IMG/VR virus record: IMGVR_UViG_3300028581_000024
Span: 1-64,000 of that record
Reading direction: 5' to 3' (one strand)
Source of the DNA: a virus
DNA length: 64,000 nt
Shown: piece after piece, positions 3,828-62,667 of the stretch
Layout of the letters: each line of letters starts with the position of its first letter
How positions within the stretch are numbered: the first letter of the stretch is position 1
Notes under the pieces: model-generated
What the model was told of the DNA's origin: nothing
The model's database searches: none
What the model saw: only the letters and a program-made list of their open reading frames with translations
Program-made: the position numbers and the translations under genes

Positions 3828-3835
3828 TATTTATT
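3828..3835 (-). promoter_or_regulatory. Late promoter box of gp21
   Basis: AATAAATA on the minus strand, one base from the T4 late consensus TATAAATA, ends 4 bases before the gp21 ATG. Confidence 0.65.
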
Positions 3836-3846
3836 AGTAGTTTAGT

Positions 3847-4302
3847 CTATTTTCTCAACTCTTTTTCTGTTAAAATAGTAAATTCGTACCCTCTTTCTTT
3901 GCACCATTTCTTTGCAGCTTGCCATTTAGCTTGATTTTGAATGTATGTTAACTGTTCATATAAAAGAGTTTTTTTATGCTTACCGGGTGTCTCTTCTGGC
4001 TTTACTGTTTGTTTGTGTGGTTTAACCTCAACAAGAAATTTCTTTATTCCATCTGCTGTTTTTAATTTTATTATTGCGTCGACAATATAACGATGTATTT
4101 TATGATCAATAGGGCTTTCATAGGGAATAACAATGCTCTCACTCCCCCACTCAATCACATTAGGGTTATTATCACACCAGCGAAACAATTTTAATTCCCA
4201 GCTGCTAAGGTAACGTGGCAAATCATGCCCTTTGTATTTTTGTGCATGTGTAGGCTTGAAAATGCCCTGTATGTACTTGTTATTTTTGGGTGTGAACTTC
4301 AT
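3847..4302 (-). CDS. 4: Head completion nuclease gp4
   Basis: 151 residues (T4 gp4 is 150). This family finishes the packaged head before tail joining and has a TnsA-like PD-(D/E)xK nuclease fold. The likely catalytic set is seen as E36 in SSWELKLFRW, D75 in RYIVDAII and E92-V-K94 in FLVEVKP. The N-terminus is basic and begins with F-x-P-K-N-x-x-K-Y-x-G as in the family. The start overlaps the gp13 stop by 4 bases. The gp13-gp4-gp21 order makes a compact head-finishing operon. Confidence 0.87.
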   Translation of the reverse strand: MKFTPKNNKYIQGIFKPTHAQKYKGHDLPRYLSSWELKLFRWCDNNPNVIEWGSESIVIPYESPIDHKIHRYIVDAIIKLKTADGIKKFLVEVKPHKQTVKPEETPGKHKKTLLYEQLTYIQNQAKWQAAKKWCKERGYEFTILTEKELRK

Positions 4303-5297
4303 CCAACGAAGAATTCAGGTGGGGGTGCATCACCAAACCCTGCTGCACGTTCATATAATTTCTTTTCCAAATCAGCTTTTTCCTCACGACCATTGTTCAG
4401 CATATCATTATAATTAATAGACCCGCCGCCGAACAGCTGGGTGTTTTGATATTTACCACGAACAGATCCAATTGCTATTTTTGTTAGAGCGAGAGCGTAT
4501 TGATAGACCCAAGGCTCTTTAATAATATCGACTAGAGGGCGCTCAACATACGCTGTCACAATACCATAAAAATGTGAACTACTACTACGGGGCGGCGGGA
4601 ACAATTGCATGTATTGTGTGCGACTGTCAAAGTGAAAATCACGTCTCAGGGCCAAAACTTTTTCGCGAGTGTCCAGCCAATTCTTCAAAACATTCCAACT
4701 GACCAAGTCAAATCCATAATTGCCCAGAGCATAGCTGAAATAACTCTGTTGTGCCAATGATTGTTCAATGGTAAACAAAGTGTTTATGCCATTGCTACTG
4801 CCTTCTTCAAATTCTGTGACATCAATGACACGGCGGTAATCATCTAGCAAATAATCGTAACTGTTTAATAATTCTAATTCATTTGGTCTGCTTTGATCAA
4901 CAACTTGATATAGGTATGGGTCTGCTGGGTCACCAATAACCATCCTACCAATTGAGTACATTGATTTAATTTCTGGGGAAACATCTTTAAATTTGGCTCT
5001 AAAGTTAAAATCTTTGGTCAAACTAAACAAAACATCCAACCGCAATCCTTTAAACTCTTCGTAAAGCTTACTATCAAAAACTAGATATTCTTGTGTGTAC
5101 CCTGCAAACTTCGTAAACATTTCACACGCCATACCAATAAACTCATTCAACTGATCTGCATGAATTTCTATGTTTATGAGTGGTGCACCTAGTGCACGAC
5201 AAATACGTTGCCCAAGCCGTTCATAGCTTTGGATCTTTGATTGTAGGTTAGTACTATAGAAAGAACTCACCGGTTCCACATCACTGCAAATCATCAT
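4299..5297 (-). CDS. 13: Neck protein gp13
   Basis: 332 residues (T4 gp13 is 309). It forms the head-tail neck with gp14. The N-terminal segment LGAPLINIEIHADQLNEFI matches the T4 start LGAPIINVELTPDQIYDCI. The C-terminal segment has the family ending: a Y-A-L-A-L-T-K helix, then GGGSINYNDML, a charged helix and a final P-P-P-E-F-F-V-G. The middle is more divergent. The start overlaps the stop of the upstream tail gene by 4 bases. The partner gp14 is not next to it but about 40 kb away on the other strand. Confidence 0.9.
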   Translation of the reverse strand: MMICSDVEPVSSFYSTNLQSKIQSYERLGQRICRALGAPLINIEIHADQLNEFIGMACEMFTKFAGYTQEYLVFDSKLYEEFKGLRLDVLFSLTKDFNFRAKFKDVSPEIKSMYSIGRMVIGDPADPYLYQVVDQSRPNELELLNSYDYLLDDYRRVIDVTEFEEGSSNGINTLFTIEQSLAQQSYFSYALGNYGFDLVSWNVLKNWLDTREKVLALRRDFHFDSRTQYMQLFPPPRSSSSHFYGIVTAYVERPLVDIIKEPWVYQYALALTKIAIGSVRGKYQNTQLFGGGSINYNDMLNNGREEKADLEKKLYERAAGFGDAPPPEFFVG

Positions 5298-8200
5298 ATA
5301 ATAGTTATTCCATCTCCACCAGAATAAGGCACACTTCCACCAAGAGTTAACCCATATATGGGCGTTATTGTGTCTGTTGTGTTTGCACCAGCTGGCATTG
5401 GATCTAAACTTATGCCAGGCCCATTATAATATGTGTAATCTGCATTCAAATTATAATAGTACTTGGTGGGCTTGCCATGCAGCTTGCTGCCATTGCTTGT
5501 GAATCTAATCACAGTCACACTGAGAGAAGAAGGAGCAATAACAGATGTGGTGCCACTAGATAGTTCATATACTTTTGTGGAAAATACATAATCTGAATCA
5601 AATACAAGGGTGCGGCCACCTGGGTCATCTTGCTGTACTACTAATGTATAATCACCCCCTTTCTTTTTTGTACCAACAGGCACAATATTTTGCACAAAAG
5701 CATTTGCCGACAAATTGACAAAGGCAACTTGATTGGCAGAAAGATTCCAATTGAACAATTCGATTTGATTTACATTGGTATACTCTTGAGCGGAGAGTGT
5801 TAAGAATTTTAATACAGCATTTGACAATCGTTTGGGGTAATAACCAAATCGTCTGATATAGCCAGTAAACCCATCCATGCCCCCTGCAGCTGACGCTCCA
5901 ATAAACCCACTGCTCAAATTGCCTGGCACCAAGGATACAATACTAGTCCCTACAATATTGCCTGAATCAGCCAGAGTAACATTGTTCACAGCGTAGCTTA
6001 ATGCAAGTGCACGTGGGTAATCAATTCTATTGTTAGGCGAAGTTAGATTATAACCAAGCGCTACTGAATCATTAACTGTGCCCCTGACATTTGCAGTGTA
6101 ATTGTTTTTATATCTTAAGGCAGTTGAATTGCTTGAACTATCATTAGTGAATCTGTACAATGAGAAGCCGCTTGCCGATGCTGCTGTGGTGCTAGGAATC
6201 AATCTTGTTTCAAATAAAAATGTTCCCTCGGTATTATTGAGAATGGCACCAGACACAAAGCCGTATTCTGTATCCCTTGTGTAGTATGAGGAGCTAATGG
6301 TGGGTATGTAGGATGATGGCACAACATTGGGAACATCTATATTTTGTTCCAATTGTGCACCCCACACATAAACAGTTCCATTGGAATTATTAAAATTGTA
6401 TGCAGGGGCTATGCGAATGGATGTATTAGTGGCAGAGTAGTAGGGCAACACAATTCGATACCATTGTGCCTGTGGAAACGCATATGAAAACGATGACAAT
6501 ATGCTTGTGTAACTGGACAGGGTATCCAGAGTTGTACTGTCCACAATTTTTATTCCATAGTCTGCTGCAGATAATGTGCCAAGCTTCACATACAATGAAA
6601 GAATATAATCTGCACTTGGGTTGATGGGTATTGTGTAGGAATATACTGTGTTGGATGTGATGGGGGTAACAACAGTGGCAGGTAAATTGTAAGCAGGCGA
6701 GGCTCCACTCTCAGCAAGTGGTGTTTCAGTGAAAAATGTTGTCATGGCGCGGTCTGTGCCATCATATGCAAATGCAACAAACAAGCCATCCCAACCACAA
6801 GTGACAGTGCTCCATTGGTTTGCAGCTGCTGCCACATATCCACGCCAAATCTTACCATTGCGCGAGTACATGGTACGTGTTGTACCGTCAAGAGAAACAG
6901 CAACAAAAATGCCATTGCCATAGGTTACTGAGCGCCAACTGTTTTGTTCAATGGAATCATATGTGCTCCAGTTCACACCATCAGCAGAAATCATTACTCT
7001 GTGTGCACCATCAGAGGCAACAGCAACAAACAACCCATTGCCGTAAGCTACACTTGTCCAGCTATTATTCTCAGGCACCGGGTATGCAGTCCATGTTTCA
7101 CCATAATCTCTTGACACCATGACGCGATTTGTGCCAGTATTAGATATGGCAACAAATATACCATTGCCATATGCTATTGATTGCCAACCATTCCCTTCTG
7201 CTGCAGCTGCCGACAGCCATGTAACCCCAAGATCAGACCGCATGACTTGACACAAGTCTGTGCCGTTTACAGCTATGGCATCAGCAACAGCAACAAACCA
7301 CCCATCACCATATGTAACTGATGTCCATGTGGCTGGTTCTGGTGCATCCCGCCCAACCCAAACTGAGCCTGTGTTTGAAGTGTTTATTCGATTGACATCA
7401 CCAGCGCTTGCCACAATCACAAACGAATTGTCACCAAAAGCAACGCCACACCAATCAGAACTGGTGGTGGATGCTTGAGTTGTCCAACTAATACCATCCA
7501 ATGAGGTGGCTAATGTGCCACCAGTGCTGCATGCAACAAATGCTGGTGTTGTGCCACTGAATAGACCTGAAACAACCCCTGTCCAGGTAGTCAAAGCAGG
7601 GGTACTAGAAGCCCAGGACATGCCGTTAGCTGGTAGCACCTCCCAATTTACAATTTCACCTCCATACGGTACAAAATTTGTTCTTGATCGCTCAAACAAA
7701 GATCCTTCACACTGCCAAACACTCAGTATGTTGCTATATTCATGATTAGAGCGGGGTAAATTTTCTCCTACAAACCGTATTTGCCCATTTTTATCTATAT
7801 AGCTTGCAGATGAATTTCGAACATAGGTAAGAAATCCACCTGTGAGGATATTGGCCGTTGTATTGCCGCCCATGAAGTCACCATACAATATTGCTGAAAT
7901 TGTTTGTGGTGCCAAAGTTGTGCCTTTAAAATTATGCGCTTGTGTTGACTCTTGTGGTGTGGGCAATCGATAGGTTGTAGCTTCAAATGGCCAGTCAGCA
8001 CTATAGGTGTTTGTTATGGTGTATGTATTTTCATACCTGGCTGATGTTTGGCTGTAGGTAGTGGCAAAACTAGCAACGTTTTGCCAGTTTGAACTTAATG
8101 CTGTTACTGTGTTATATGTTGTTGGATACAGGAAATAGTCTGCACTGTTACTGCAAAGGGCGGTGTAGGCCGATTGCCACCTGGTACTGTTTGTGGATAT

Positions 8201-9108: not shown

Positions 9109-9114
9109 AAAGCC

Positions 9115-14338: not shown

Positions 14339-14342
14339 ATTT

Positions 14343-14350
14343 TATTTATC
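14343..14350 (-). promoter_or_regulatory. Late promoter box
   Basis: GATAAATA on the minus strand, 4 bases before the ATG of the 1,137-residue adhesin gene. Confidence 0.65.
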
Positions 14351-14356
14351 CAGTTA

Positions 14357-17289: not shown

Positions 17290-17293
17290 ATAT

Positions 17294-17301
17294 TATTTAA
17301 T
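17294..17301 (-). promoter_or_regulatory. Degenerate late promoter box
   Basis: ATTAAATA on the minus strand, 4 bases before an ATG. The same variant with the same spacing occurs before the gene starting at 47128. Confidence 0.45.
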
Positions 17302-17303
17302 CA

Positions 17304-28069: not shown

Positions 28070-28077
28070 TATTTATA
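28070..28077 (-). promoter_or_regulatory. Late promoter box of gp25
   Basis: A perfect TATAAATA on the minus strand, 5 bases before the gp25 ATG. It is divergent from the plus-strand box at 28101. Confidence 0.8.
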
Positions 28078-28100: not shown

Positions 28101-28108
28101 CATAAATA
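28101..28108 (+). promoter_or_regulatory. Late promoter box
   Basis: CATAAATA, one base from consensus, ends 6 bases before the ATG at 28115. The region 28065-28114 holds both divergent promoters. Confidence 0.65.
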
Positions 28109-30087: not shown

Positions 30088-30121
30088 AAACATAATATAA
30101 CGTATGGTATATCGAATTCAA
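30088..30121 (-). promoter_or_regulatory. Sigma70-like promoter of dUTPase-gp44
   Basis: TTGAAT (30121-30116), 16-base spacer, TATATT (30099-30094), then 6 bases to the ATG at 30087. Transcription would start at the start codon. It is adjacent to a late box on the other strand. Confidence 0.6.
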
Positions 30122-30123: not shown

Positions 30124-30131
30124 GATAAATA
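30124..30131 (+). promoter_or_regulatory. Late promoter box of the small terminase gene
   Basis: GATAAATA ends 4 bases before the GTG start at 30136. Confidence 0.65.
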
Positions 30132-36184: not shown

Positions 36185-36192
36185 TATTTATA
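36185..36192 (-). promoter_or_regulatory. Late promoter box
   Basis: Perfect TATAAATA on the minus strand, 4 bases before the ATG at 36180. Confidence 0.8.
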
Positions 36193-38004: not shown

Positions 38005-38012
38005 TATTTATC
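38005..38012 (-). promoter_or_regulatory. Late promoter box with leader
   Basis: GATAAATA on the minus strand is followed by a GGAG site and the ATG at 37987, so this late unit has a short leader, unlike most others. Confidence 0.6.
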
Positions 38013-38580: not shown

Positions 38581-38588
38581 TATTTATT
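38581..38588 (-). promoter_or_regulatory. Late promoter box of gp19
   Basis: AATAAATA on the minus strand, 8 bases before the gp19 ATG. Confidence 0.55.
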
Positions 38589-38601: not shown

Positions 38602-40992
38602 TTAGGCTAATAACTCCTGGAAGTTTTGGCTAGTACGAGTTGCGTAGAAGCTTACCAAGATAAACTCTGCAGCACGTACTGGCTTGAGATAGATATCTAC
38701 CTTCATTTCGTTATTATCAATAACATCTGGTGTATTATTTCGCTCATCGCAAATAATGAGGTAGTCATAAACACCTTCTGTGTTCTTGGCATTCTCAAAA
38801 ATTGGAGTGAGCGTATTAATTACTTGAGTTCTCGTAAACAATGTATTAGGTTCAAATATGAAGAACTTAACTGTATCACGAGTTGCAACTTCAAGATTGA
38901 GGAACAATCTACGTACATTAATACGATCAAACGCACTGGGTTTCTTTAGCAGTGTCTTTTGACCGAAGATTACAAAACCTTCAACGGGGAAGAAGGCAAC
39001 TGGATTCAAGCCAAATTTATAAAGCTGATCGCGTTGCTTCATCTTAGGATATACACCCAAATCATTAACACCAAGAAGAACTCCTCTTGTGAATCCAGCT
39101 GGTGCAAACCAAGGTTGGAAGTTAGCATCAGTATTACCCATTGCAGCAGCTGCAAAGCCACTAAATGGTACCCATACTTGTCTATTTGTAGCAGGATCAA
39201 TTACTTGAGCTACTGTTGCATATGTACAAGCATAGCTCGAATCAATTAAACTAAATTGATGACGTAGCGGCCAGTAGATGTGCTGACTGAAGTTTGTAGA
39301 GCTATAACCATCTGCTGCAGGATCTGGATCGAGACCCGCATTGGGTCCCCATAATTTCTTTGTATTGATTACTTTATTATTGTCACCTTGGACAAATATA
39401 TGTCTTAGCGCATCAAGAATAACCAAGAAATCTTTTCTTTGATTCTGCGCTTGTTGTACGAAGATACTAGCAATACTATTGTATGTTGAGCGAATGAGTA
39501 AACCATCTCCGTCGAGATTCTCTGAATTAGTAGTATATAGAGCACTCAATGCATTAACAGGCCACGTATCAACATAAGGGCCATTTGCAGATAATGGTAA
39601 ATTGCTATTCAGAGTCTGATATACTGAACCGATGTAAATAGAACCTAGACCAGCTTCACATGCAATATTAATAGGATAAAGATCTGGGTTTTCCACAAGC
39701 TCAAATACTCTCTCGAGCTTCTGGGGTAGATTACCAATATTTTTATCAGCAACTACTGTATTCGAATAGATACCAAACGGAAACAATGCATTAGTTGTAC
39801 CAAATGCTTGTAGGAGTGATAATACTGTAGCAGACGAGGCACCAACACGTGTGGTATAAGAAGTATTATCATCTACAAATCCAGGGTTGTTAAATGGTGT
39901 TGCAAGCACTGGTGATAGCATTCTTGCTTTCTTTGTGGGGATACCGTCATTACCCAGCCAAGAGTCACCATAACGATTGCTGATATACGGGTTAACAATT
40001 ATTCGTGCATTAGGTGAGTTGGATACCTGACTACCTAAGAAGAAACTAATAGCAGGGCCACCATTTTGACTAGCGATTTGTCTGTGCCAGTCAAGCGAAC
40101 CAGCATAGCTTTCTGCGAGTACATAATCAAGAGCAATAACATCAGGTGAAAAGACGCTCTGACGTAGTTTAAATACACCAAGCGAAAGGGTATCATCAAA
40201 TGTACGAGGGCTGAGATCGTAATTACTAATATTTTCCATTACTTCACTGATGCTAGACCCATCACCAAACTTAGAAGCACTTAATGTAAAGTTTAATCTA
40301 GCTGGAGGAACATCCACATAGGTGTTAATGGATGTTGCATTACTAGCAATACCAGCAACACTCAAGACTCCGTCAAAAGGTGTTGCAGGGTTATTGTTGT
40401 TATTATCTGTTAGAGCAACATAATACCCTTCAAACTTATTATTAACTGTAGTTTGGGAGCGATTCAAAACAATAACAGCTGCATCGTTTAAAGTATCGTA
40501 AGTGTACTTTACACCACTTTGAGGTAGAATATTGCTATGCCAGTTAACATTGTTGTTTAGTAATTCTTGATACTGCTCTATGCTTAATTCTAAATGTGTT
40601 GGTGTACCCAAGAAATATGTATCAGCTGAAGAAACATTCGATGTATAGGTACCATTCTTAGTGAATGCAGCAGGATAGACCAGGGCACTATATCTCCACT
40701 CAGCAAACCCCTCACCTTTAGCTACACCGTAAGGTAGTCTCGAAACTTTTAATTGAATGGGCGATTGTAAGGAGGCTTTTACTGTATGGTAAAAATATCT
40801 TTCTGCGGCATTTGTAGGTGTACCATAAATAGCTTCAAATTCGCCCATGCTTGTTGGTTCGAGAACCTCGTCTATTGGACCTTGAGCAGCAAAACCTGTA
40901 ATAAAAACGCTTGTACCTTGATTGACCACCGGGCGAAGCGTAAGATCAACTTCTCTGATCTCTACCCCGGGACTTTGAATTGTTCTGGCCAT
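38602..40992 (-). CDS. 18: Tail sheath protein gp18
   Basis: 796 residues (T4 gp18 is 659). It forms the contractile outer sheath. The N-terminus SPGVEIREVDLT is the classic sheath opening, and the C-terminal domain (LLKKPSAFDRINVRRLFLNLE, then AEFILVSFYA) is the conserved part that binds tube and neighbours. The middle 350 residues are an expanded surface domain. A TATAAATA box at 41038-41045 is followed by a 45-base leader with an AGGTG Shine-Dalgarno 9 bases before the ATG, as expected for a very highly expressed protein. Confidence 0.96.
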   Translation of the reverse strand: MARTIQSPGVEIREVDLTLRPVVNQGTSVFITGFAAQGPIDEVLEPTSMGEFEAIYGTPTNAAERYFYHTVKASLQSPIQLKVSRLPYGVAKGEGFAEWRYSALVYPAAFTKNGTYTSNVSSADTYFLGTPTHLELSIEQYQELLNNNVNWHSNILPQSGVKYTYDTLNDAAVIVLNRSQTTVNNKFEGYYVALTDNNNNNPATPFDGVLSVAGIASNATSINTYVDVPPARLNFTLSASKFGDGSSISEVMENISNYDLSPRTFDDTLSLGVFKLRQSVFSPDVIALDYVLAESYAGSLDWHRQIASQNGGPAISFFLGSQVSNSPNARIIVNPYISNRYGDSWLGNDGIPTKKARMLSPVLATPFNNPGFVDDNTSYTTRVGASSATVLSLLQAFGTTNALFPFGIYSNTVVADKNIGNLPQKLERVFELVENPDLYPINIACEAGLGSIYIGSVYQTLNSNLPLSANGPYVDTWPVNALSALYTTNSENLDGDGLLIRSTYNSIASIFVQQAQNQRKDFLVILDALRHIFVQGDNNKVINTKKLWGPNAGLDPDPAADGYSSTNFSQHIYWPLRHQFSLIDSSYACTYATVAQVIDPATNRQVWVPFSGFAAAAMGNTDANFQPWFAPAGFTRGVLLGVNDLGVYPKMKQRDQLYKFGLNPVAFFPVEGFVIFGQKTLLKKPSAFDRINVRRLFLNLEVATRDTVKFFIFEPNTLFTRTQVINTLTPIFENAKNTEGVYDYLIICDERNNTPDVIDNNEMKVDIYLKPVRAAEFILVSFYATRTSQNFQELLA

Positions 40993-41037
40993 TTTAGTTT
41001 ACACCTCTTACAAGAAATTGTTGACTCATATCGTTTA

Positions 41038-41045
41038 TATTTATA
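41038..41045 (-). promoter_or_regulatory. Late promoter of the sheath gene
   Basis: Perfect TATAAATA on the minus strand, 45 bases before the gp18 start, with an AGGTG ribosome site between. Confidence 0.8.
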
Positions 41046-41668: not shown

Positions 41669-43392
41669 GAGTTATTTATATCATCATCAGATTGCTGGTT
41701 GGGAAATTCCCACCCCTGCTGTTTTAAGGTCTCTATATCACTATCCAAGTCTTTTGCATCGTTTATTACGACGGGAAGAATATTTTGATCACTATTGCCA
41801 AGCTTTTCATTAGAGTACATACTAAAAGGGCTTATAACCCCTCTAATACCATAGTCTAGGGGCTTAATAACTTGTGGTCGGTCACAATCATCAAGTGAGA
41901 TAACATCAAAATATTTTACACAAATTTCATTCTCCAGGCTTATTAATGCCCATATTAAGGACATGATTCGATCATCCCAACTATCTGCACCAGGTCGAGC
42001 ACCCCACGTATTATTAGGGTACCGAATAAAGTTTTTTAGCTCCTTTAAAGTATTAACATCGCGTATTCGAACTACTTTGAGTTCGTTTACCCAATACCGC
42101 ATATTCATTACACCTCTATACTTGGTGTTGGTGTGAGCTAGAATACCAACACGTTTTGCTTCATTTTTATCACCAGCTTTAGCACCCCAAGAGATAATAT
42201 TTTCATATCTATGTGTGAATTTCAGTTGTTCGACAACCTGGGCACCACAATTATTTCTCTCTATACTCACTGGCGGGCGGCCCCATTGATTTAAAATTTC
42301 TAATAATTTTGCAGTTAATTGAAATGGGACTGTATCCCGTGTATGATATACTGCAACTTGTTCTATGGAAGTTAGATCAGTAATATCTAACACCTGTACT
42401 ACACTTGCAGCTTCTCCTACACCTTCACTTATATCTACACCAACAGTATATATTCTACCTTCACGGGGCTCTTCCCAGACAAGATATTTACCGTCATCAA
42501 AAATAAATTCTGGTTCCCGTATCTCTCTCTGTAAACTATTATACAAAGCTTCATCAACTGTGCTTTCACCACCATGAATAAACTCATTACCAAATTCTTG
42601 TGAGAAAGCTTCAACGCTTCCTAAAGTTCTAATTGTATCGTTTTTCCATTTTTCATCACGGCCTGGAATTTCCCACCAGTCAATTCGTTCCGAAACCCAA
42701 TTGTTATCACCAGCATGAGCACCTGTATACAGTTTATAAAAAAGATTATCCGTCCCATTTGGCGTACTTGCAATAAAAATTTTACTTTTCTTACTACTAG
42801 AAATAATAGGGTATACGGATTCCCAGAATTTTTCTACAATATGATTATCAATAAATGCCAACTCATCAAGAATTAAGCAATTGCAGCTATCACCTCTACC
42901 TGCATCACTACTTGTAGTGCTAATCCCTATACTACTACCATTAGTCAGGGTCATACTCGTTTGACCGTACTCTACAACCCCCGGTTTTAAGAAATTGGGT
43001 AACATTTCATATGCCATTCGAACTCTTTTAAAAATATTTTTTGCTGTCTGCTCTTTATTTGCTACAATTAAAATTCTTTGATCTTCGTTAAAACATGCAT
43101 TCCATAAACAGTATATCGTCATTAATGTTGTTTTACCTATCTGTCGTGACGCTAGCAAAATAATAAATCTACCGTCTCTAAGAGTTCTTAAAACTTTCTT
43201 TTGACAGGAGTATAAACTAATTTTCTCTTTACCGCGGTCTAGATTGATAATAAAGAAATAATTTTCAGCAAAGTGTAACAAGTTTCTTTTGCATTTTTTG
43301 AGTTCATTAACCATTTCTGGCGTATACTCATGCTTTGTATCTGATGTTGGCAGCTTATCATTACCAAGATAATATTTTTCTTTTTTCATCAT
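41653..43392 (-). CDS. 17: Terminase large subunit gp17
   Basis: 579 residues (T4 gp17 is 610). It is the packaging ATPase and nuclease. Walker A is SRQIGKTT (82-89), Walker B with catalytic glutamate is LILDE (173-177), and the C-terminal nuclease begins with GVDISEG and has DSWDDR in its later part. The start is the first of two ATGs. TCTAAATA lies 6 bases upstream and is a possible late box. The gene is divergent from the plus-strand CTS gene, with two late boxes back to back. Confidence 0.96.
   Translation of the reverse strand: MMKKEKYYLGNDKLPTSDTKHEYTPEMVNELKKCKRNLLHFAENYFFIINLDRGKEKISLYSCQKKVLRTLRDGRFIILLASRQIGKTTLMTIYCLWNACFNEDQRILIVANKEQTAKNIFKRVRMAYEMLPNFLKPGVVEYGQTSMTLTNGSSIGISTTSSDAGRGDSCNCLILDELAFIDNHIVEKFWESVYPIISSSKKSKIFIASTPNGTDNLFYKLYTGAHAGDNNWVSERIDWWEIPGRDEKWKNDTIRTLGSVEAFSQEFGNEFIHGGESTVDEALYNSLQREIREPEFIFDDGKYLVWEEPREGRIYTVGVDISEGVGEAASVVQVLDITDLTSIEQVAVYHTRDTVPFQLTAKLLEILNQWGRPPVSIERNNCGAQVVEQLKFTHRYENIISWGAKAGDKNEAKRVGILAHTNTKYRGVMNMRYWVNELKVVRIRDVNTLKELKNFIRYPNNTWGARPGADSWDDRIMSLIWALISLENEICVKYFDVISLDDCDRPQVIKPLDYGIRGVISPFSMYSNEKLGNSDQNILPVVINDAKDLDSDIETLKQQGWEFPNQQSDDDINNSWQHL
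41673..41680 (-). promoter_or_regulatory. Late promoter box inside the terminase gene
   Basis: Perfect TATAAATA on the minus strand, 4 bases before the GTG start at 41668. Confidence 0.8.
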
Positions 43393-43398: not shown

Positions 43399-43406
43399 TA
43401 TTTAGA
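43399..43406 (-). promoter_or_regulatory. Possible late promoter box of gp17
   Basis: TCTAAATA on the minus strand, one base from consensus, 6 bases before the first ATG of gp17. Confidence 0.4.
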
Positions 43407-43408: not shown

Positions 43409-43416
43409 TATAAATA
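43409..43416 (+). promoter_or_regulatory. Late promoter box
   Basis: Perfect TATAAATA, 5 bases before the ATG at 43422. Confidence 0.8.
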
Positions 43417-44373: not shown

Positions 44374-44381
44374 TATAAATA
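44374..44381 (+). promoter_or_regulatory. Late promoter box
   Basis: Perfect TATAAATA, 4 bases before the ATG at 44386. Confidence 0.8.
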
Positions 44382-46733: not shown

Positions 46734-46767
46734 GTATTAATAATATACGAAGCTTACTCTTTTTCAA
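46734..46767 (-). promoter_or_regulatory. Sigma70-like promoter
   Basis: TTGAAA (46767-46762), 16-base spacer, TATTAT (46745-46740), 6 bases to the ATG at 46733. Confidence 0.65.
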
Positions 46768-47140: not shown

Positions 47141-47166
47141 AAAGCTCTAATATTATTATCGTAAAT

Positions 47167-47174
47167 AATAAATA
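47167..47174 (+). promoter_or_regulatory. Late promoter box
   Basis: AATAAATA, 4 bases before the ATG at 47179. Confidence 0.65.
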
Positions 47175-47178
47175 TAAT

Positions 47179-48632: not shown

Positions 48633-48666
48633 TACTATAGTATAAAGGAATAATTGATAATATCAA
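48633..48666 (-). promoter_or_regulatory. Sigma70-like promoter of the primase gene
   Basis: TTGATA (48666-48661), 16-base spacer, TATACT (48644-48639), 6 bases to the GTG at 48632. Confidence 0.7.
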
Positions 48667-48669
48667 TTA

Positions 48670-48855: not shown

Positions 48856-48858
48856 ACA

Positions 48859-49167
48859 TTATTTATTCTCAACCACTGCCTTATCAACAGATTGGGCTCG
48901 CTTCTGAGACCTAGTCTTTTTATATTGTTCTATACAAACTGTATAGATGTCAGAGGGTAGTTGCTCTACTAAGGTTAGAATTTTAGATTTAATGCTTGAT
49001 TCGAATACCTTTTTAGGTACTTCTCTAATATGCATTTTTGGTAAACTCAAAAACATATATACTTCATTTTGTTCTTCTGTATATACAAAAAACTCGCCAA
49101 TATAATCACCAGTAGTAACGGCAAAAATATCCCTCTTACGTGGCTTTGATTTATTTCGAAAGAACAT
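48859..49167 (-). CDS. Small basic protein of unknown function
   Basis: 102 residues from the ATG at 49167. The open frame extends to a TTG at 49197, which would overlap the epimerase gene by 47 bases, so the ATG is preferred. It begins MFFRNKSKPRKRD and has a beta-rich middle (VYMFLSLPKMHIREVPK) and a basic end. Unrecognised. It is translated from the same operon as the epimerase. Confidence 0.6.
   Translation of the reverse strand: MFFRNKSKPRKRDIFAVTTGDYIGEFFVYTEEQNEVYMFLSLPKMHIREVPKKVFESSIKSKILTLVEQLPSDIYTVCIEQYKKTRSQKRAQSVDKAVVENK
48860..48867 (-). promoter_or_regulatory. Late promoter box
   Basis: AATAAATA on the minus strand, 4 bases before the ATG at 48855, overlapping the end of the upstream gene. 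Confidence 0.55.
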
Positions 49168-50328: not shown

Positions 50329-50347
50329 ATTTTTAGAGTCTTCCTTG

Positions 50348-50716
50348 TTATTTTTTTTGGGATGCTTCACTACTATATTTAGGGCGCTCAGCATAATAAG
50401 GAGAATTTTGAGGTGTATTTGCAATACCTTTACTAAGCAGATAGGAGATAATAACTTCAATGCTGTCAGTTTTAATACTGAAGTTACGAGGAATTGCTAA
50501 CCCACCATCATTCAATTCAAACATAATTTCATTCATGAAGTGTTTATTGTGGAAACATGTAATAAACAAACTAGTAGACCCCGGATTAACAAGCACTGTC
50601 CAGCGACGGGGGTCATGCTCACCGAAACCATTGAATAATTTTAACGCAATAAAACCATTATCACGTAATCTCTTCATGAAGTAACCGGGTGTTGTTATTT
50701 TATTTTTTGAGCTCAC
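50348..50716 (-). CDS. Protein of unknown function downstream of the clamp
   Basis: 122 residues, starting with GTG and overlapping the clamp stop by 4 bases. The same length as T4 RegA, which in T4 also follows the clamp and loader genes, but its sequence does not match RegA. Blocks such as TPGYFMKRLRDNGFIALKLF and SLFITCFHNKHF look folded and conserved. A regulatory or replication-associated role is only a guess from position. Confidence 0.6.
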   Translation of the reverse strand: MSSKNKITTPGYFMKRLRDNGFIALKLFNGFGEHDPRRWTVLVNPGSTSLFITCFHNKHFMNEIMFELNDGGLAIPRNFSIKTDSIEVIISYLLSKGIANTPQNSPYYAERPKYSSEASQKK

Positions 50717-51441
50717 TTGATTAAAGATGACGCTATATAGCGAGTTTTTACAGGACCGTCGAGTAGTTGAAATAATACGACCCCTAATTTTTGATTAATT
50801 TTACACTCTAACTGCTTTACTCTCACACTACTAATTATTCTTATCAATTCGAAGTTCAAGCATAAATTTGTTAATTCCTCTCCTTTGTATTCACTAAGGG
50901 GTATCGAAATACTGTCAACATTTTGACGAGCTCGATCCGTAAGGTCACCAAAGATCTTTCCTTCTTTTGAATATAGATATAATTTGTTACTCTCTGACGC
51001 AAAGGTAGACCCTCTAAGCAGTTCGATTAGTGATTTATATTGAATAACAAACTCAATTGGAAAATTTAAACTAGCTATTTTTGATACATTTACCTTGGGC
51101 GCAGTAATGATACCATCTTCAAGCAAATGATATTTAAAGCGTATCTCAGGACCGCTGTAGTTGATATTATTTTTATCTACAGTAATCGTAAAGCTATCTG
51201 TACTGATACACTCAAATGCCTTGATAACCTTTTTAATGTCTGAAATATTTAAATGAATAGGAACATCAATATTAGTATCAACTTTGTACTGTGAATGAAG
51301 TATTACTGAGGTATCAGAAGTACAAACTAGGCTTGAAAAACCTTCCCCATCCAAAGTTACGACACAACTATCATTTAGCTTGCCTAATGGCTGTAGAAAG
51401 CCATTTATAAAGAGTTTTTTATCAGGAATATTTACATTCAC
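50713..51441 (-). CDS. 45: DNA polymerase sliding clamp gp45
   Basis: 242 residues (T4 gp45 is 228). It forms the trimeric clamp that tethers the polymerase and also activates late transcription in T4. The repeated beta-alpha-beta layout is visible, with L-D-G-E-G-F-S-S-L near 30 and strands such as ITAPKVNVSKIASLNF. A GTG start is used and lies 7 bases after TATAAT. The gene overlaps the following ORF by 4 bases. Confidence 0.85.
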   Translation of the reverse strand: MNVNIPDKKLFINGFLQPLGKLNDSCVVTLDGEGFSSLVCTSDTSVILHSQYKVDTNIDVPIHLNISDIKKVIKAFECISTDSFTITVDKNNINYSGPEIRFKYHLLEDGIITAPKVNVSKIASLNFPIEFVIQYKSLIELLRGSTFASESNKLYLYSKEGKIFGDLTDRARQNVDSISIPLSEYKGEELTNLCLNFELIRIISSVRVKQLECKINQKLGVVLFQLLDGPVKTRYIASSLIK

Positions 51442-51475
51442 AAGGATTATTATATACTACAAAAACGAAAAGCAA
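51442..51475 (-). promoter_or_regulatory. Sigma70-like promoter of the clamp gene
   Basis: TTGCTT (51475-51470), 15-base spacer, TATAAT (51454-51449), 7 bases to the GTG at 51441. Confidence 0.5.
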
Positions 51476-52737: not shown

Positions 52738-52772
52738 ATTGTTTATAATATATGATTAGTTTTTAAAATCAA
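52738..52772 (-). promoter_or_regulatory. Sigma70-like promoter of gp32
   Basis: TTGATT (52772-52767), 16-base spacer, TATTAT (52750-52745), 7 bases to the ATG. The -35 overlaps the end of the upstream gene. Confidence 0.65.
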
Positions 52773-53666: not shown

Positions 53667-53717
53667 ACAATTTCAATGACTTACTGAGATTTATAACGTG
53701 TTTAATCAAAAGCTAGC

Positions 53718-55707: not shown

Positions 55708-55741
55708 GAATAAATATTAATAGATAGATATAAATAATCAA
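55708..55741 (-). promoter_or_regulatory. Sigma70-like promoter
   Basis: TTGATT (55741-55736), 16-base spacer, a weak TAATAT (55719-55714), 6 bases to the GTG at 55707. It overlaps a plus-strand late box. Confidence 0.5.
55729..55736 (+). promoter_or_regulatory. Late promoter box
   Basis: Perfect TATAAATA, 10 bases before the ATG at 55747, so this message would have a few-base leader. Confidence 0.7.
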
Positions 55742-55746
55742 GTATT

Positions 55747-56619
55747 ATGAATTTAGATAGCAAACTAATGTTTGAAGCGTATATCACTAGTAAACAACAG
55801 ATTTTAACTGAAGCTCCAATTGAAATGGGTGGGGATATTAATGTCGAGCCTGTAACAAAAAAGACTTTACCTGGCCAAGGCAAGGGGTATGGTGCCGGTG
55901 CTATTACTAAAATTGCAGCAGCGCAAGGTAAGTCTGAAGAAGATGTTGCAACAGAGATGGCAAAAACGGTTCTAGATTATACAAAAGAGAAAAAAATGGT
56001 TGATGGTAAGGAGGTTTACTACTTCCCTGGTGATCCAAAGACATTCATTAACGAACTAACACCAGTTTTTAAAGATAAGTTTGGTATTCCTGCTTCCATG
56101 GCCGGATTTACTGTGAATTATATTTTAATATATCTATTAAATGCTAAAAAGACTTCTGGTGGATTAAAAATGGATGCACAAAAAGTAAAAGCTGCAAAAG
56201 AAATGAAAGCTGCTACAAAAGCCGAACCAAAAACAGAGACTGTGTATGAGATTGATAAGGCTGTACGTATTCCTGAGAAAAATTTAAGAGCTCTTGTGCT
56301 TAGTCTGCCTGATGATGATGTGCCTGAGCGTGAAATCCTGTCAGTTGTAAAAACAGCTTTGCAAGAGTATAATGAAACACCTGGCTTGGCAAAAGAAGAT
56401 GCAATTAAAATGAGGTCTCTTGAAGTTGTAGACAAATTAACAGAATATGGTGTACTCAAAACAAAACAAATTGAAAAGGCCCAAGCTGAAGGTGAAGGCT
56501 CTGGAGAAGTAGAAACTGTTGAAGATTTTCCTGAAGGTGATGACATTTACTCAGCAGCCAAACAAGAATTTCGCTTGAGAGATACACCAGGTGATAAGAA
56601 TTACGGTGACTTCAGTTAA
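55747..56619 (+). CDS. CTS-type late head protein
   Basis: 290 residues, unrecognised. The N-terminus MNLDSKLMFEAYITSKQ leads to ILTE|A at residues 19-23, a perfect match to the T4 head protease rule and the clearest in the window. The mature part is K/E/A-rich with a folded-looking region at residues 40-140 (GAITKIAAAQGKSEEDVATE) and a helical region near 170-250. It stands alone on the plus strand. Its stop overlaps the converging amidotransferase stop by 4 bases. An internal protein packaged with DNA is likely. Confidence 0.78.
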   Translation: MNLDSKLMFEAYITSKQQILTEAPIEMGGDINVEPVTKKTLPGQGKGYGAGAITKIAAAQGKSEEDVATEMAKTVLDYTKEKKMVDGKEVYYFPGDPKTFINELTPVFKDKFGIPASMAGFTVNYILIYLLNAKKTSGGLKMDAQKVKAAKEMKAATKAEPKTETVYEIDKAVRIPEKNLRALVLSLPDDDVPEREILSVVKTALQEYNETPGLAKEDAIKMRSLEVVDKLTEYGVLKTKQIEKAQAEGEGSGEVETVEDFPEGDDIYSAAKQEFRLRDTPGDKNYGDFS

Positions 56620-57305
56620 CTGAAGAACGGGCTATTAAAATCAAAATTTGCCACTGAAGTTAGTCCCTCTGGGGTTACCTCATACACAACACCTTCTTCA
56701 ACAGCTTCACTTCCTTTGAACTTTACACTACTAAAGGTATTATCAATTTTATTTGCAAACAAAGTACTGCCACACCTGGCTATATATACCCCCCTGTAGT
56801 CAGTGTTTATAATCCATAAACCAAAAGTGCCTTCAAGGTGTGAGAGAGCAGTTGAAATTATCTCAACTGAATGGCCCTGTGAATTGACAGCTTGCTGGAT
56901 CTTGTATAACATAAGTGGAATGGTGCTCGAATCTACTGGGTTCTTCCACTTTGGATCAAACTGTTGCTTAATTTCATCAAAATTTGTCAAAACACCATTG
57001 TGTGCTACAATCCAATTCTCTGTATTGAAGGGGTGAGACGTTTCCCGGGAATACTTTCTCTTCGAAGAGGTTGGTGCTTGTGTATGTCCTAGTAAATAGA
57101 GCGGAGACATCCCAGCATCTTTCAAGCTTTTCTTAATTTCTTTGTCCATATCTTTAACAGCAACAGTACCACTCCAGCGATGTACAATAACATTGCTGTC
57201 TGTGGTTAAAATGGCTAAAGATGTGGAGAAAGTGCCGCGCTTGCGGTTTAAATCGTAAAGATCTAAGAATTGTTCTTGCTTAACAGCGCCAAAAATACCG
57301 CACAT
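56616..57305 (-). CDS. Class II glutamine amidotransferase (stand-alone)
   Basis: 229 residues, Ntn-hydrolase fold. The catalytic cysteine is Cys2 after Met removal (MCGIFGAV), with G-H-T-Q-A-P-T-S-S and AHNGVLTNFDEI as the glutamine-binding segments. It frees ammonia from glutamine for a partner enzyme. The start directly abuts the QueC stop (TAA then ATG), implying a working pair. In archaea a Gat domain fused to QueC makes archaeosine from preQ0, so the pair could do a similar step here. The acceptor is not proven. Confidence 0.88.
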   Translation of the reverse strand: MCGIFGAVKQEQFLDLYDLNRKRGTFSTSLAILTTDSNVIVHRWSGTVAVKDMDKEIKKSLKDAGMSPLYLLGHTQAPTSSKRKYSRETSHPFNTENWIVAHNGVLTNFDEIKQQFDPKWKNPVDSSTIPLMLYKIQQAVNSQGHSVEIISTALSHLEGTFGLWIINTDYRGVYIARCGSTLFANKIDNTFSSVKFKGSEAVEEGVVYEVTPEGLTSVANFDFNSPFFS

Positions 57306-58049
57306 TTAAGTATTATAGTCATCATAATCGATTTTTCTACAATTATACTTCTGCCACACGTGAGATAAGTCTTGTTTGTATGATTGTGGGTCAATGAAAC
57401 CTGCATTAGCAAAGCCTTTAATACGCAAAGCGCTGCTTGCAGAATTAGCATCCGCTTCAGTTTCTCCTGAATAGCAAGTATATGTCTTACTAAATTTAAC
57501 TTTTAACCTTACACCCTCTTTAATAATGTCAGCCTTGACCATCTTTATTAACGGTGCTTCTATTTTAATTTGAACTTCACGATTTAGCGCAAGCACATCG
57601 TTAATCGTAGGCAAAAATTCTGGACTTGCATCCCAATAACCGGCCAAGCTGTCAACTCCCGTCGCGCCATGATATACTTTAACCGCACCCACCGCTTCAG
57701 CATAAGCAGCAGCAACACTCAAAAACATCATGTTACGGTTAGGCACATACGACTTGGGTTGCGCCTCACCAGCAACCTCTCTTATATCAGGCGTATCAAT
57801 ATCATTGTTTGTAAGGCTGCTTGTTGGAGCTATATCTCTTATAAACCGTACATCAATAGTCTTAAACGCACCGCATTTTTTTTCATTGGCATGGTATGCT
57901 GCTAATTCCAATTCACGTAAATGGCGTTGACCATAATTAAAGGCAATTGCAAATACATTCTCTGATCCCGCCTCTTCACATGCTTTGTATAACAAAACTG
58001 TGCTATCCATTCCACCACTTATTGGAATTACAATTTTATTTTGGCTCAT
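57306..58049 (-). CDS. queC: QueC-family 7-cyano-7-deazaguanine synthase-like protein
   Basis: 247 residues. QueC converts carboxy-deazaguanine to preQ0 with ATP and ammonia. Seen: SGGMDST (11-17, ATP loop), NYGQRHLREL (38-47), VPNRNMMFLSVAAAYAEA and DASPEF. The usual C-terminal zinc site has four cysteines; here only C192 (TCYSG) remains and the other positions are A, N or S. The altered end and the neighbouring amidotransferase point to a changed reaction, perhaps like Gat-QueC. No QueD, QueE, FolE or DpdA was found in this window. Confidence 0.87.
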   Translation of the reverse strand: MSQNKIVIPISGGMDSTVLLYKACEEAGSENVFAIAFNYGQRHLRELELAAYHANEKKCGAFKTIDVRFIRDIAPTSSLTNNDIDTPDIREVAGEAQPKSYVPNRNMMFLSVAAAYAEAVGAVKVYHGATGVDSLAGYWDASPEFLPTINDVLALNREVQIKIEAPLIKMVKADIIKEGVRLKVKFSKTYTCYSGETEADANSASSALRIKGFANAGFIDPQSYKQDLSHVWQKYNCRKIDYDDYNT

Positions 58050-58527: not shown

Positions 58528-59651
58528 ACGTCTTCTTTTGAAGATTTAGCAGCTTTTGTACTCTTAGGGGACTCCACAACAACGTCCCCAGTAGCATTAC
58601 CATACTTGTAAGCAGCTTCCAGCTTTTTATCAAGAAGCGGGATCAACTCTTCATAGAATTTTGAATCTTTAGTAAAGTTCTTTGCATACCCTAACTTAGT
58701 GCCATCAGGTTTTTGGTATGTGGCACCAGTTTGAATAATGAGGCCATGATTGACTGCCATCTCAAGCAAACCACTATATTTGTCTAAACCGGTTAGATAA
58801 TTTAACTGAATACTTGCTTCTAGAAATGGTGGAACAAAACGATTTTTCACAGTTAATGCTCGCAATGTTGCACCGCTGTAGTTTTTTGCTTCTGGAAGAA
58901 TAGTATCATCTTCATTATTTGCATCTTGCTTTTCATTTCTCTTGGCCAACTGTACAATGACACTAGCCATATACAATGGACCACTACCACCACTCTGACT
59001 TTGTACTAAAGAAGGATACAATGAAGCAGGATCACTGTAAGTGTGGTTAGTCATTAAGATAGTAACACCAGCACGGCCCGCTTTATAGGTCAAAAGACGT
59101 AACAAACTCTTTAGCCCCTTCGCTCTTGTGCCCATGTCAGAAGCTCCCTTGTCTTTCTCAGCATCAGATACTTCTTTACTACTTGCAAGATTGCCCAAGC
59201 TATCCAAGCTGATAATAAATTTACCTTGCATGTTGTGCTCAACAATACTATCAAGGAATGTACTAATCTGATTTCGTGCATTTTCTACTGTATATACCGG
59301 CACATATTTGGTTTTATCGGGGTCTAGACCAACTCCTGCAGTGGTATTCTTATCAATGGCAAACTCTGTATCAAAAATAACTGGAGTTATGCCCTTCTTC
59401 TGGGCAATACCAAGAATTTTATTGACCAACAGAGTTTTACCTGTCTGCGAGGGGCCAGCAAAGATAACTAGACGGCCCTTCGGGACACCACCGTCCTTTA
59501 ACTTACCAGACACAATTGCGTTTAATGCATAGCACCCGGTATCATACCAAGTATCCACGTTACAAAGCGCATTCTCCGAGAGAAATGTTGCTTCTGGGTT
59601 AAGCGCGTCTAACGATTTAAATGCTCTTGAGAGTATTTCGTCTTGGTTCAT
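58524..59651 (-). CDS. uvsX: RecA-like recombinase UvsX
   Basis: 375 residues (T4 UvsX is 391). It drives strand exchange in recombination-dependent replication. Walker A is GPSQTGKT (66-73) and a Walker-B-like IISLDS lies at about 147-152. The ending is charged. The gene overlaps the short gene upstream by one base (TAATG) and the downstream gene by 4. Confidence 0.93.
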   Translation of the reverse strand: MNQDEILSRAFKSLDALNPEATFLSENALCNVDTWYDTGCYALNAIVSGKLKDGGVPKGRLVIFAGPSQTGKTLLVNKILGIAQKKGITPVIFDTEFAIDKNTTAGVGLDPDKTKYVPVYTVENARNQISTFLDSIVEHNMQGKFIISLDSLGNLASSKEVSDAEKDKGASDMGTRAKGLKSLLRLLTYKAGRAGVTILMTNHTYSDPASLYPSLVQSQSGGSGPLYMASVIVQLAKRNEKQDANNEDDTILPEAKNYSGATLRALTVKNRFVPPFLEASIQLNYLTGLDKYSGLLEMAVNHGLIIQTGATYQKPDGTKLGYAKNFTKDSKFYEELIPLLDKKLEAAYKYGNATGDVVVESPKSTKAAKSSKEDV

Positions 59652-60004
59652 TATTCGTCAAATAGCTTAATTACTGGTGCGTCTTTGCCTTTGCCTTCGT
59701 TAACCGGCTTTGCAGCGGCAAAGATTCTTGTATACTGTTCGCCGATCTTTGGATCTAGCTTTACAGCAGACGTGACAATGCTATTTTTCGAGAAATTAAA
59801 TACTGCTCCTTCATTTCTCGATTTCTCCTCAATAAATTCCTTAAAAAATAATGGAATCAATTGAACTTGTAATTGTCCGCTCTGATTAGGGCTAACATGA
59901 AGTACTGCTGGATTCTTTACAGAAAGACCAGCTGCATCTTCAGATACCTTCTCAGCTAGGACTGTTTGACCGACATGATTAATGAATACTGTTATATTGC
60001 TCAT
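59651..60004 (-). CDS. Conserved-looking protein upstream of UvsX
   Basis: 117 residues, unrecognised. Beta-rich start (MSNITVFINHVGQTVLAEKV), then LQVQLIPLFFKEFIEE and a flexible G/K-rich tail (VNEGKGKDAPVI). Close coupling to UvsX suggests a recombination or replication helper. A -35/-10 promoter ends 6 bases before the ATG. Confidence 0.7.
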   Translation of the reverse strand: MSNITVFINHVGQTVLAEKVSEDAAGLSVKNPAVLHVSPNQSGQLQVQLIPLFFKEFIEEKSRNEGAVFNFSKNSIVTSAVKLDPKIGEQYTRIFAAAKPVNEGKGKDAPVIKLFDE

Positions 60005-60038
60005 AAGATTAATATAATGGCTCTTTTGAGAAAATCAA
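60005..60038 (-). promoter_or_regulatory. Sigma70-like promoter of the UvsX operon
   Basis: TTGATT (60038-60033), 16-base spacer, TATATT (60016-60011), 6 bases to the ATG at 60004. The -35 overlaps the gp43 stop. Confidence 0.65.
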
Positions 60039-62626
60039 GCACCAAGTAGCTCAAAAAGATCACATTGTGTGGCTTCACCGGGTTTTCTTGGTGACCAACT
60101 AACACATTCATAAAATCTTTCTACAGCACTATAGATAATTTTTTCAAACATTAGCTCTGTATCTGGCTGGAAGATCTTCTCAAACTCTTCAGGGTAATAA
60201 TATTTGTAAGCAATTGCATTAATACCGTATCTATTCGGCTGCTTTACATAAAAATATCTAATCTTGTCACCACTACCAATAGATTCATATTTTTTATCTA
60301 CGTTAAGGGTCTTCAGAAGCATATTATGGTGATATGCTGCTTTTACGTGTATAGGCATTGACTTGACCGTCCTAAACCCATCACATTTACTAGAATACTT
60401 CTCATACCCTTTCAATCCTGTTACGAAAGAAAAATCGCTAATCGGAAGCCCTTGGAACACATCATAAGCCTCTGTAATCACTTCATTAGTCTTTTGCTGA
60501 TCTTGTGTGAGTAACATAGTCTCTACAATTTTCTTAGCTAGCGGCTTGATTGGAGCAGGCATAGTAGTACGGGCAATCTCTACACCTGTGTACTTGAACT
60601 TATTACATGGTATACCCTCTTCATCTAGCACACGAATAACATAGCGTTTTTTCTGTAAAAATAGACCAACATCACAAATTACCTCACGCTTAAAAGTAAT
60701 TCTACTATCAAGACTGTTGAGATTTTTTTCACACCATACTTGTATTTGCTGATTGAGATGCGTTTCAATACCATTTACTAAATTATGAAATTCTGGTGTA
60801 ATTTTAGACTTACTGTCTATCGCATTAATATTGAGAGTCTTGACTAAGCTCTCTAGAGAAATATAACTAGAATCCGTATCATTATAGATAATTGGCGTAT
60901 TTTTTTCAATCTCTTCAGCACTTAATCCAGACTTTTGTTGGATATAATCTGTTAAAATCTTATTGCCCTGTTTAATAACCGCTTGACCAGTCAGAGTAAT
61001 GCTTCTGGCCAAATCATCATCGCCTAGAGGGAAAACCTTATTACCTAACGCACCGTAGACCGTATTAATAAAAATCTTGATTGTATGTTGTTTGATATTC
61101 AAAACAGAGAGTTTGTCTTTCAGTTCTTGATACATAGGGTCCTTTTTATCTAGTTCTGATAATTGTCTCTTAATTTTCTTATGCTCCTTTCTCACCTGCA
61201 CACGAAGCTTATAGTACTGGTCAACCATTTCCGGTATAATGCCCTTATGCTTCTGACTAAAGAGTACTTTTGCTTTACTGATAGCTAACTTTTCCTCTTG
61301 AACAAGCTTTGCAAACTTAGCCATAGGAACAACTACCGTTCTACTATTAACATCACGAATAGTAACATCTTTATCCGTTTGTGATTCTATTACACCCATC
61401 TTAGTTTCAGGTGAAAGATTGAGAGTAATCATAACAGATGGGTACAGGCTATTGGCGTCAAAACTCACAATGTATTTTTGAAATCCACGCTTTGGATCCC
61501 CGACATACGCACCTTCATTCTGCTTACCGTCATCCGCACCACGTATAAAAGTAGGTATTTTTTTATTTCTATAGCGTGCTCGAATAGCACATGCACCAAT
61601 AATTACACTCATACTGCCCATCGCAGCTTCCATGGTCGTCAAGCCGGTATAACTTAGCATTCGGAGTAGTTCAAAGTATTGCAGCTTTTCTTCAAGCTTA
61701 ATCAAAAGTCGAACGTCTTGTACGTTATATTCAACAAAGGTATCCCAATCTGTGTCGGCCAGAGTACTTAAGTTAGTATTACCAAAATCTATTTTAGATT
61801 CTCCTAACTCAATTATGGCAATATTATTAAGCTTATAGTTTTCTCGCAAAACCATGCAAAATCTCTTGTAAATATCAAGATAATCTAAACAAGAGATACC
61901 GTCTATATACCATCGAACCTGCTCTCTACCGAACTGGCCTTTCAGGGTTCTACTATGGACTCTACCCATGGGGCTCAGGCGACGCACCGTGTCATCATCA
62001 AACAACACCCTGATGCGATTAATTAAATACGGTAAGTCAAACAAAATAGAATTCCAACCCAAGAGTACATCTGGATAGTCACTCTCTATATATGTAATGA
62101 ACTTTAAAAACATTTCTTTTTCTGTTTTACAGAAGTAGAATTTATGATCCGCAGCAGTCTTGGTATAAGGTTTTGTACCCCAGGTTATGTACTTTTTACT
62201 TAGACTGTCATAAATTGTAATAACATTTACAGCATGATTAGCTGTCTCTACATTAGGAAAGTCATCAACAGAATATGTTTCGATATCAAGAAAGAATAGC
62301 TTAAGAGGGAACCTTGAAAACTCTGTCGATTCATTATGTTCCCAGAAATTATCAATTAAAAATTGCTGACCTGGTGAAAGATTTTCAAATACTCTAACTG
62401 TATCTGTTTCTTTTAAATATTTTGACTTTTCAAATTGATTCTTAAAAACTTTTTTCTTAAGATTAGTATTGAAGATACTAACTGCGTCCTTTGCATTGTT
62501 AGATTCTAGGTAAATATAGGGCTTGAATGTAGAATCAATAGCAATTCTATTACCTGATGCATCCCAGGTGAACAGCCGAATAAGCTCCTGCCTAGGGTCG
62601 TATGCAATATTTCTATAGCCTATCAT
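60035..62626 (-). CDS. 43: DNA polymerase gp43 (family B)
   Basis: 863 residues (T4 gp43 is 898). Exonuclease motif I FLDIETYS (112-119) and Exo III YNVQDV (300-305) precede polymerase motif A DANSLYPS (390-397), motif B N-T-V-Y-G (521-525) and motif C NDTDSS (582-587). It is the replicative polymerase with proofreading. It has its own promoter with TATAAT 6 bases before the ATG. Confidence 0.97.
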   Translation of the reverse strand: MIGYRNIAYDPRQELIRLFTWDASGNRIAIDSTFKPYIYLESNNAKDAVSIFNTNLKKKVFKNQFEKSKYLKETDTVRVFENLSPGQQFLIDNFWEHNESTEFSRFPLKLFFLDIETYSVDDFPNVETANHAVNVITIYDSLSKKYITWGTKPYTKTAADHKFYFCKTEKEMFLKFITYIESDYPDVLLGWNSILFDLPYLINRIRVLFDDDTVRRLSPMGRVHSRTLKGQFGREQVRWYIDGISCLDYLDIYKRFCMVLRENYKLNNIAIIELGESKIDFGNTNLSTLADTDWDTFVEYNVQDVRLLIKLEEKLQYFELLRMLSYTGLTTMEAAMGSMSVIIGACAIRARYRNKKIPTFIRGADDGKQNEGAYVGDPKRGFQKYIVSFDANSLYPSVMITLNLSPETKMGVIESQTDKDVTIRDVNSRTVVVPMAKFAKLVQEEKLAISKAKVLFSQKHKGIIPEMVDQYYKLRVQVRKEHKKIKRQLSELDKKDPMYQELKDKLSVLNIKQHTIKIFINTVYGALGNKVFPLGDDDLARSITLTGQAVIKQGNKILTDYIQQKSGLSAEEIEKNTPIIYNDTDSSYISLESLVKTLNINAIDSKSKITPEFHNLVNGIETHLNQQIQVWCEKNLNSLDSRITFKREVICDVGLFLQKKRYVIRVLDEEGIPCNKFKYTGVEIARTTMPAPIKPLAKKIVETMLLTQDQQKTNEVITEAYDVFQGLPISDFSFVTGLKGYEKYSSKCDGFRTVKSMPIHVKAAYHHNMLLKTLNVDKKYESIGSGDKIRYFYVKQPNRYGINAIAYKYYYPEEFEKIFQPDTELMFEKIIYSAVERFYECVSWSPRKPGEATQCDLFELLGA

Positions 62627-62660
62627 CTTTTTATTATAATGGAACTTCTGTATTTGGCAA
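62627..62660 (-). promoter_or_regulatory. Sigma70-like promoter of gp43
   Basis: TTGCCA (62660-62655), 16-base spacer, perfect TATAAT (62638-62633), 6 bases to the ATG at 62626. Confidence 0.7.
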
Positions 62661-62667
62661 ATAAATT
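62660..62667 (+). promoter_or_regulatory. Weak late promoter box
   Basis: AATAAATT, two bases from consensus, 5 bases before the ATG at 62673. It overlaps the gp43 promoter on the other strand. Confidence 0.35.

Follow-up and report, generated by a model that had tools for sequence, protein, structure and literature searches.

The window analysed here is the whole 64,000-base stretch, namely bases 1 to 64,000 of an uncultured virus record with a total length of 92,062 bases. The genome has a GC content of 37%, and its gene starts were chosen mechanically. T4-type genes on the record are gp23, gp21, gp44, gp17, gp18, gp19, gp32, gp43, gp45 and a UvsX-like recombinase, and the DNA polymerase is approximately 30% identical to those of cyanophage and Caulobacter phage Cr30 relatives. 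The virus is taken to be a deep-branching T4-like myovirus. A near-identity search of cultured phages gave no match, and one structural protein likewise had no relative in that set. The host-linked genes whiB and psbA are absent, and two scans of genome contigs with host-like genes also gave no match. No tRNA genes were found in the contig, and no Rfam families in the window.

A homologue of the gp55 sigma is encoded at 66978-67574 of the contig, outside the window (E 1.5e-24), and gp55 homologues were also found in four large relatives. The sliding clamp gp45, which in T4 is the activator of late transcription, has a homologue within the window:

50713..51441, minus strand, gp45 sliding clamp homologue (PHROG 223, E 8e-11)

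Full late transcription in T4 also needs gp33. No significant match to T4 or Syn9 gp33 was found; the contig is a fragment, and gp33 is short and fast-evolving.

The core of the T4 late box, ATAAATA, was sought on both strands, and the position of each box is described by d, the number of bases between the end of the box and the start codon. The exact core is present at 32 sites in the contig, the first base of the 8-bp TATAAATA-type box being variable. Sites in the window include the following:

3828..3834, minus strand, late box ATAAATA, d = 4 from ATG 3823 (gp21 protease), exact in 47 of 47 distinct relatives
14343..14349, minus strand, late box, d = 4 from ATG 14338 (1137-aa protein)
28070..28076, minus strand, late box, d = 5 from ATG 28064 (baseplate wedge, gp25-like)
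28102..28108, plus strand, late box, d = 6 from ATG 28115
30125..30131, plus strand, late box, d = 4 from GTG 30136
36185..36191, minus strand, late box, d = 4 from ATG 36180
38005..38011, minus strand, late box, d = 17 from ATG 37987, leaving a short leader with GGAG
38581..38587, minus strand, late box, d = 8 from ATG 38572 (tail tube gp19)
41038..41044, minus strand, late box 5' of gp18 (tail sheath)
41673..41679, minus strand, late box, d = 4 from GTG 41668
43399..43405, minus strand, weak late box CTAAATA, d = 6 from ATG 43392 (terminase large subunit)
43410..43416, plus strand, late box, d = 5 from ATG 43422, exact in 88% of 17 distinct relatives
44375..44381, plus strand, late box, d = 4 from ATG 44386, exact in 9 of 9 distinct relatives
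47168..47174, plus strand, late box, d = 4 from ATG 47179, exact in 85% of 20 distinct relatives
48860..48866, minus strand, late box, d = 4 from ATG 48855
55730..55736, plus strand, late box, d = 10 from ATG 55747
Starts 17289 (TTAAATA, d = 4), 47128 (TTAAATA, d = 4) and 62673 (ATAAATT, d = 5), weak late boxes with one mismatch

The original prediction had named eleven boxes at a constant distance from start codons on both strands, and all eleven are exact copies of ATAAATA lying 4-6 nt before an ATG or GTG. The range of d = 4-6 holds at GTG starts also, but the spacing is not strictly constant, with a mode at d = 4 in the contig (12 of 21 boxes). The four weaker forms listed there (17289, 43392, 47128 and 62673) are each one mismatch from the box, and relatives support two of them, 43392 (63% within one mismatch) and 47128 (100%). 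The remainder of the contig contains eight more gene starts with a box at d = 4-8. A small gene at the edge of the contig (5-220, plus strand) has its upstream box off the contig; in 7 of 7 distinct relatives there is an exact box at d = 4-6.

In a genome of 37% GC with mechanically picked start codons, such a pattern could be an artefact of AT-rich sequence or of wrongly chosen starts. An exact box at d = 4-6 is found in 11 of the 61 genes in the window, compared with 0.29 (maximum 3) in 400 dinucleotide shuffles of the upstream regions, and in 17 genes of the whole contig, compared with 0.45 in shuffles, so that the distances are tighter than in a shuffled control, as had been proposed. At d = 3-8 lie 21 of the 32 exact boxes in the contig, against 6% for 20 other permutations of A5T2, and at d = 8-29 the number of boxes is not above that in shuffles (4 vs 3.2). 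Moreover, T4 and the cyanophage P-SSM4 are equally AT-rich and do not have the pattern. Chance and AT-richness are therefore ruled out by the shuffles and motif permutations. Wrong start codons are ruled out by the gp21 alignment, in which codon-position constraint starts at the ATG (mean entropy 0.60, 0.30 and 1.39 for positions 1, 2 and 3). We give an artefact of either kind practically no credence.

The spacing is conserved in relatives, which comprise many IMG/VR records and are not mutually independent. All 47 distinct gp21 upstream regions have the exact box, 34 of them at exactly d = 5. Around gp21, conservation falls on the box, on the start codon and, beyond the start codon, on codon positions 1 and 2; much of the sequence further upstream is near random. 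In the pooled relatives, late boxes number 13 at d = 0-3, 72 at d = 4, 221 at d = 5, 87 at d = 6, 42 at d = 7 and 30 at d = 8. The floor below d = 4 together with the tail above is as expected if the transcript must include the start codon. The same near-start peak is seen in four large relatives (149-230 kb), and one relative, G007, has many boxes at d = 7-12. Orthologues of coupled genes and of replication genes mostly lack the box. The start codons that follow boxes at d = 4-6 are 88% ATG, 11% GTG and 1% TTG. A +1 site should show a preference for a pyrimidine at -1; position -1 is T at 66% of box genes and at 56% of other starts, which is hardly above the background as an initiator signature.

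The absence of Shine-Dalgarno sites from box genes, which had been put forward in support of leaderless messages, is true but not discriminating. A strong site is present in 2 of 21 box genes, the same as in the upstream control, and the rates are 10% for box genes, 12% for other gapped genes, 24% for coupled genes and 9-16% for controls. Since such sites are rare in every class of gene, their absence alone is no argument for leaderless messages. Their rarity throughout the genome, and the fact that some relatives encode the ribosomal protein bS21, would also suit a reading in which ATAAATA is not a promoter at all but acts in the mRNA as a translation-initiation signal rich in A and U, of the kind known from bacteria that initiate without Shine-Dalgarno sites. 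Coupled genes also need initiation, yet the box is present in just 2 of 47 of them (Fisher 6e-5 in that count, with one contig-edge artefact included); it marks 19 of 53 operon-first genes. The motif of replication genes is another one, which includes a -35 part and lies at another distance, as described below. In addition, the box is identical to the T4 late consensus, and the contig encodes a gp55 homologue. Given the coupled-gene and replication-gene patterns, a translation signal in place of a promoter is very unlikely, and the boxes are treated below as late promoters.

Operon-first genes without a late box, among them gp43, gp32, gp45 and primase, are preceded by elements resembling TTGATT and TATAAT, the second of which, the -10 element, ends 5-7 nt 5' of the start codon:

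62633..62661, minus strand, sigma70-type promoter, TATAAT ending 6 nt before ATG 62626 (gp43 DNA polymerase)
60011..60038, minus strand, sigma70-type promoter TTGATT-16-TATATT, d = 6 from ATG 60004
55714..55741, minus strand, sigma70-type promoter TTGATT-16-TAATAT, d = 6 from GTG 55707 (5' of the DnaB-like helicase gene)
52745..52772, minus strand, sigma70-type promoter TTGATT-16-TATTAT, d = 7 from ATG 52737 (gp32)
51449..51475, minus strand, sigma70-type promoter, TATAAT ending 7 nt before GTG 51441 (gp45 clamp)
48639..48666, minus strand, sigma70-type promoter TTGATA-16-TATACT, d = 6 from GTG 48632 (primase)
46740..46767, minus strand, sigma70-type promoter TTGAAA-16-TATTAT, d = 6 from ATG 46733
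30094..30121, minus strand, sigma70-type promoter TTGAAT-16-TATATT, d = 6 from ATG 30087

Promoters of this type lie at d = 5-7 in 10 of the 53 operon-first genes of the contig, compared with 0.15 in shuffles, and in none of the 47 coupled genes. No gene in the contig has promoters of both classes. In the pooled relatives the sigma70 class peaks at d = 6 (83, vs 10 at d = 5 and 8 at d = 7), and the usual distance from -10 to +1 in a sigma70-type promoter is 6 nt. We refer to this class as early, a label that we infer from the kind of promoter and from the replication genes in the class. With strict definitions the two classes together account for 29 of 53 operon-first genes, the remainder having degenerate boxes, longer leaders or no recognised promoter. 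At L001:6769-6775 (contig 70769-70775, plus strand) a TATAAT abuts ATG 70769; GTG 70775, in the same frame, lies at d = 6 from it and is more probably the true start than the ATG.

The late box in T4 spans -13 to -6 (PMC2988020), so that d = 5 sets +1 on the start codon. The two promoter classes thus differ in geometry, and each of them indicates a +1 at the start codon. In the proposed mechanism, transcription of late operons would be directed by a gp55-type box, ATAAATA, at 4-6 nt from the start codon, and that of replication and other non-late operons by a sigma70-type promoter with its -10 element ending 6 nt short of that codon. With the box-to-+1 distance usual for each class, transcription would then start on the first base, A or G, of the start codon. 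Ribosomes would read an operon's leading gene from a leaderless message, and the genes after it would be translated by coupling. It is in our judgement highly probable that many operon-first genes have promoters fixed to their start codons and mRNAs that start on that codon or only a few bases from it. The sequence, the spacing, its conservation, the gp55 and gp45 homologues and the split between promoter classes are observed directly; the transcript starts and the leaderless translation are inferred from them. The placing of +1 at or adjoining the start codon, as originally predicted, is supported by the motif, gp55 and gp45, the operon-first placement and the clade-wide spacing, and remains a prediction without measured ends. 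The suggestion that late genes are leaderless is likewise supported, but was too narrow, having missed the sigma70-type promoters of replication genes at 6 nt.

The fit to T4 geometry is not perfect. The mode in the contig, d = 4, is one base short of it, so +1 must shift by one base, and the boxes in the tails, at d = 7-12, would mean that some genes have leaders of 2-7 nt. The boxes could accordingly be late promoters with +1 a few bases away from the canonical position, giving very short leaders (1-7 nt) and messages that are not truly leaderless. The spread of d from 4 to 12, the many boxes at d = 7-12 in G007 and the d = 8 of the gp19 box are in keeping with this, but the sharp modes at d = 5 for late boxes in relatives and at d = 6 for the sigma70 class fit +1 on the start codon. 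Short leaders as the general explanation are considered improbable, though they cannot be dismissed, and a start on or next to the start codon is preferred.

The structural genes gp18 and gp23 were among those expected to keep leaders with ribosome sites. This is correct for gp23, which keeps AAGGAGA and has no nearby box. The gp18 case is not that of a plain leader: the box is 45 nt upstream, and the interval contains an 11-codon reading frame (MSQQFLVRGVN*, 40994..41029, minus strand) that begins at d = 8 from the box and stops just before the gp18 ATG at 40992. A short frame of 10-11 codons in front of gp18 is kept in close relatives (L003-L019, L065, L070), with a GGAG-type site inside most, and in many distant relatives a box lies 5-9 nt before gp18 itself. 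It is possible that the 11-codon frame is a leader peptide coupled to gp18.

T4 late transcription is a textbook system, and the genes carry leaders with ribosome sites. The late promoters of T4 (TATAAATA, used by gp55-gp33-gp45) have the same box as those described here, gp55 and gp45 homologues are present here too, and boxes lie at late structural genes on both strands. They differ in that gp33 is not recognised here, and in that the T4 box is usually 10-35 nt before the start and leaves a leader, with 1 of 60 at d = 3-8, so near-start boxes are indeed not typical of T4. Cyanophage late promoters (NATAAATA; S-PM2, Syn9, P-SSM2, P-SSM4) share the motif and a T4-like gene set, but their boxes are further upstream, and the matches at d = 4-6 equal, or come close to, the reversed-pattern background. 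Near-start boxes are 1 of 22 in P-SSM4, and boxes in S-PM2 and P-SSM2, like those of T4, are about 20 nt or more from starts. When the pattern is counted over entire records, S-PM2, P-SSM2 and other cyanophages of this kind show an enrichment at d = 22-24 and stay close to background at d = 4-6; the clade shows the reverse, and Pelagibacter phages have boxes at both distances. HTVC008M has eight boxes at exactly d = 5, and Mosig EXVC030M has 12 matches at d = 4-6 vs 3 in the control; both resemble the contig in this, but only part of their boxes are near starts. Mosig has about as many boxes at d = 22-24, unlike the clade, and HTVC008M has no early (sigma70-class) peak, unlike the contig.

Widespread leaderless messages in one genome have reportedly been found in a study of mycobacteria, where ATG and GTG both serve as starts of such messages; that is a cellular genome and not a phage programme as here. 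Leaderless messages are spared by kasugamycin (PMC5230787). The middle and late transcripts of the lytic Thermus phage phiYS40 are mostly leaderless (PMC3594737). It differs in having a Thermus host, T4-type promoters are not described there (PMC3594737), and in the contig the early-class promoters look leaderless too. The use of T4-type promoters in a leaderless style known from phiYS40, and its extension to the early class, are supported. No published report of such a leaderless T4-type phage was found in open papers, to which the search was limited.

If the prediction is right, a T4 promoter class has been positioned, throughout a large uncultured clade, to make transcription and translation begin on the same base or only a few bases apart. 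Starts in these phages may then be misassigned by gene finders that look for ribosome sites, and it would be implied that the host translates leaderless messages efficiently. Because HTVC008M was cultured on Pelagibacter HTCC1062 and has eight such boxes, the idea is directly testable.

Ribosomal protein bS21 is encoded by G003, G007, G012 and, weakly, G013, and also by HTVC008M, Mosig and Melnitz; it is absent from T4, S-PM2, P-SSM2 and the present contig. These genes co-occur with near-start late boxes, a correlation in few genomes. A role in favouring late phage messages has been proposed for phage-encoded bS21 (PMC9723584). Two relatives have CAT tRNAs that are closer to the E. coli initiator than to the elongator tRNA-Met (L172:14333-14406, minus strand, in G003, and G007:143318-143389, plus strand), again a correlation in few genomes. 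We suggest only tentatively, and think it rather doubtful, that a lineage of the T4 superfamily has shifted all of its programme, early as well as late, to leaderless mRNAs and encodes initiation parts suited to such messages, namely bS21 in several larger relatives and the initiator-like tRNA-Met in two.

Separately, 56616-58049 (minus strand) and L001:12794-13474 (minus strand) carry glutamine-amidotransferase-like, QueC-like and GTP cyclohydrolase I genes, which suggests DNA modification of the 7-deazaguanine type.
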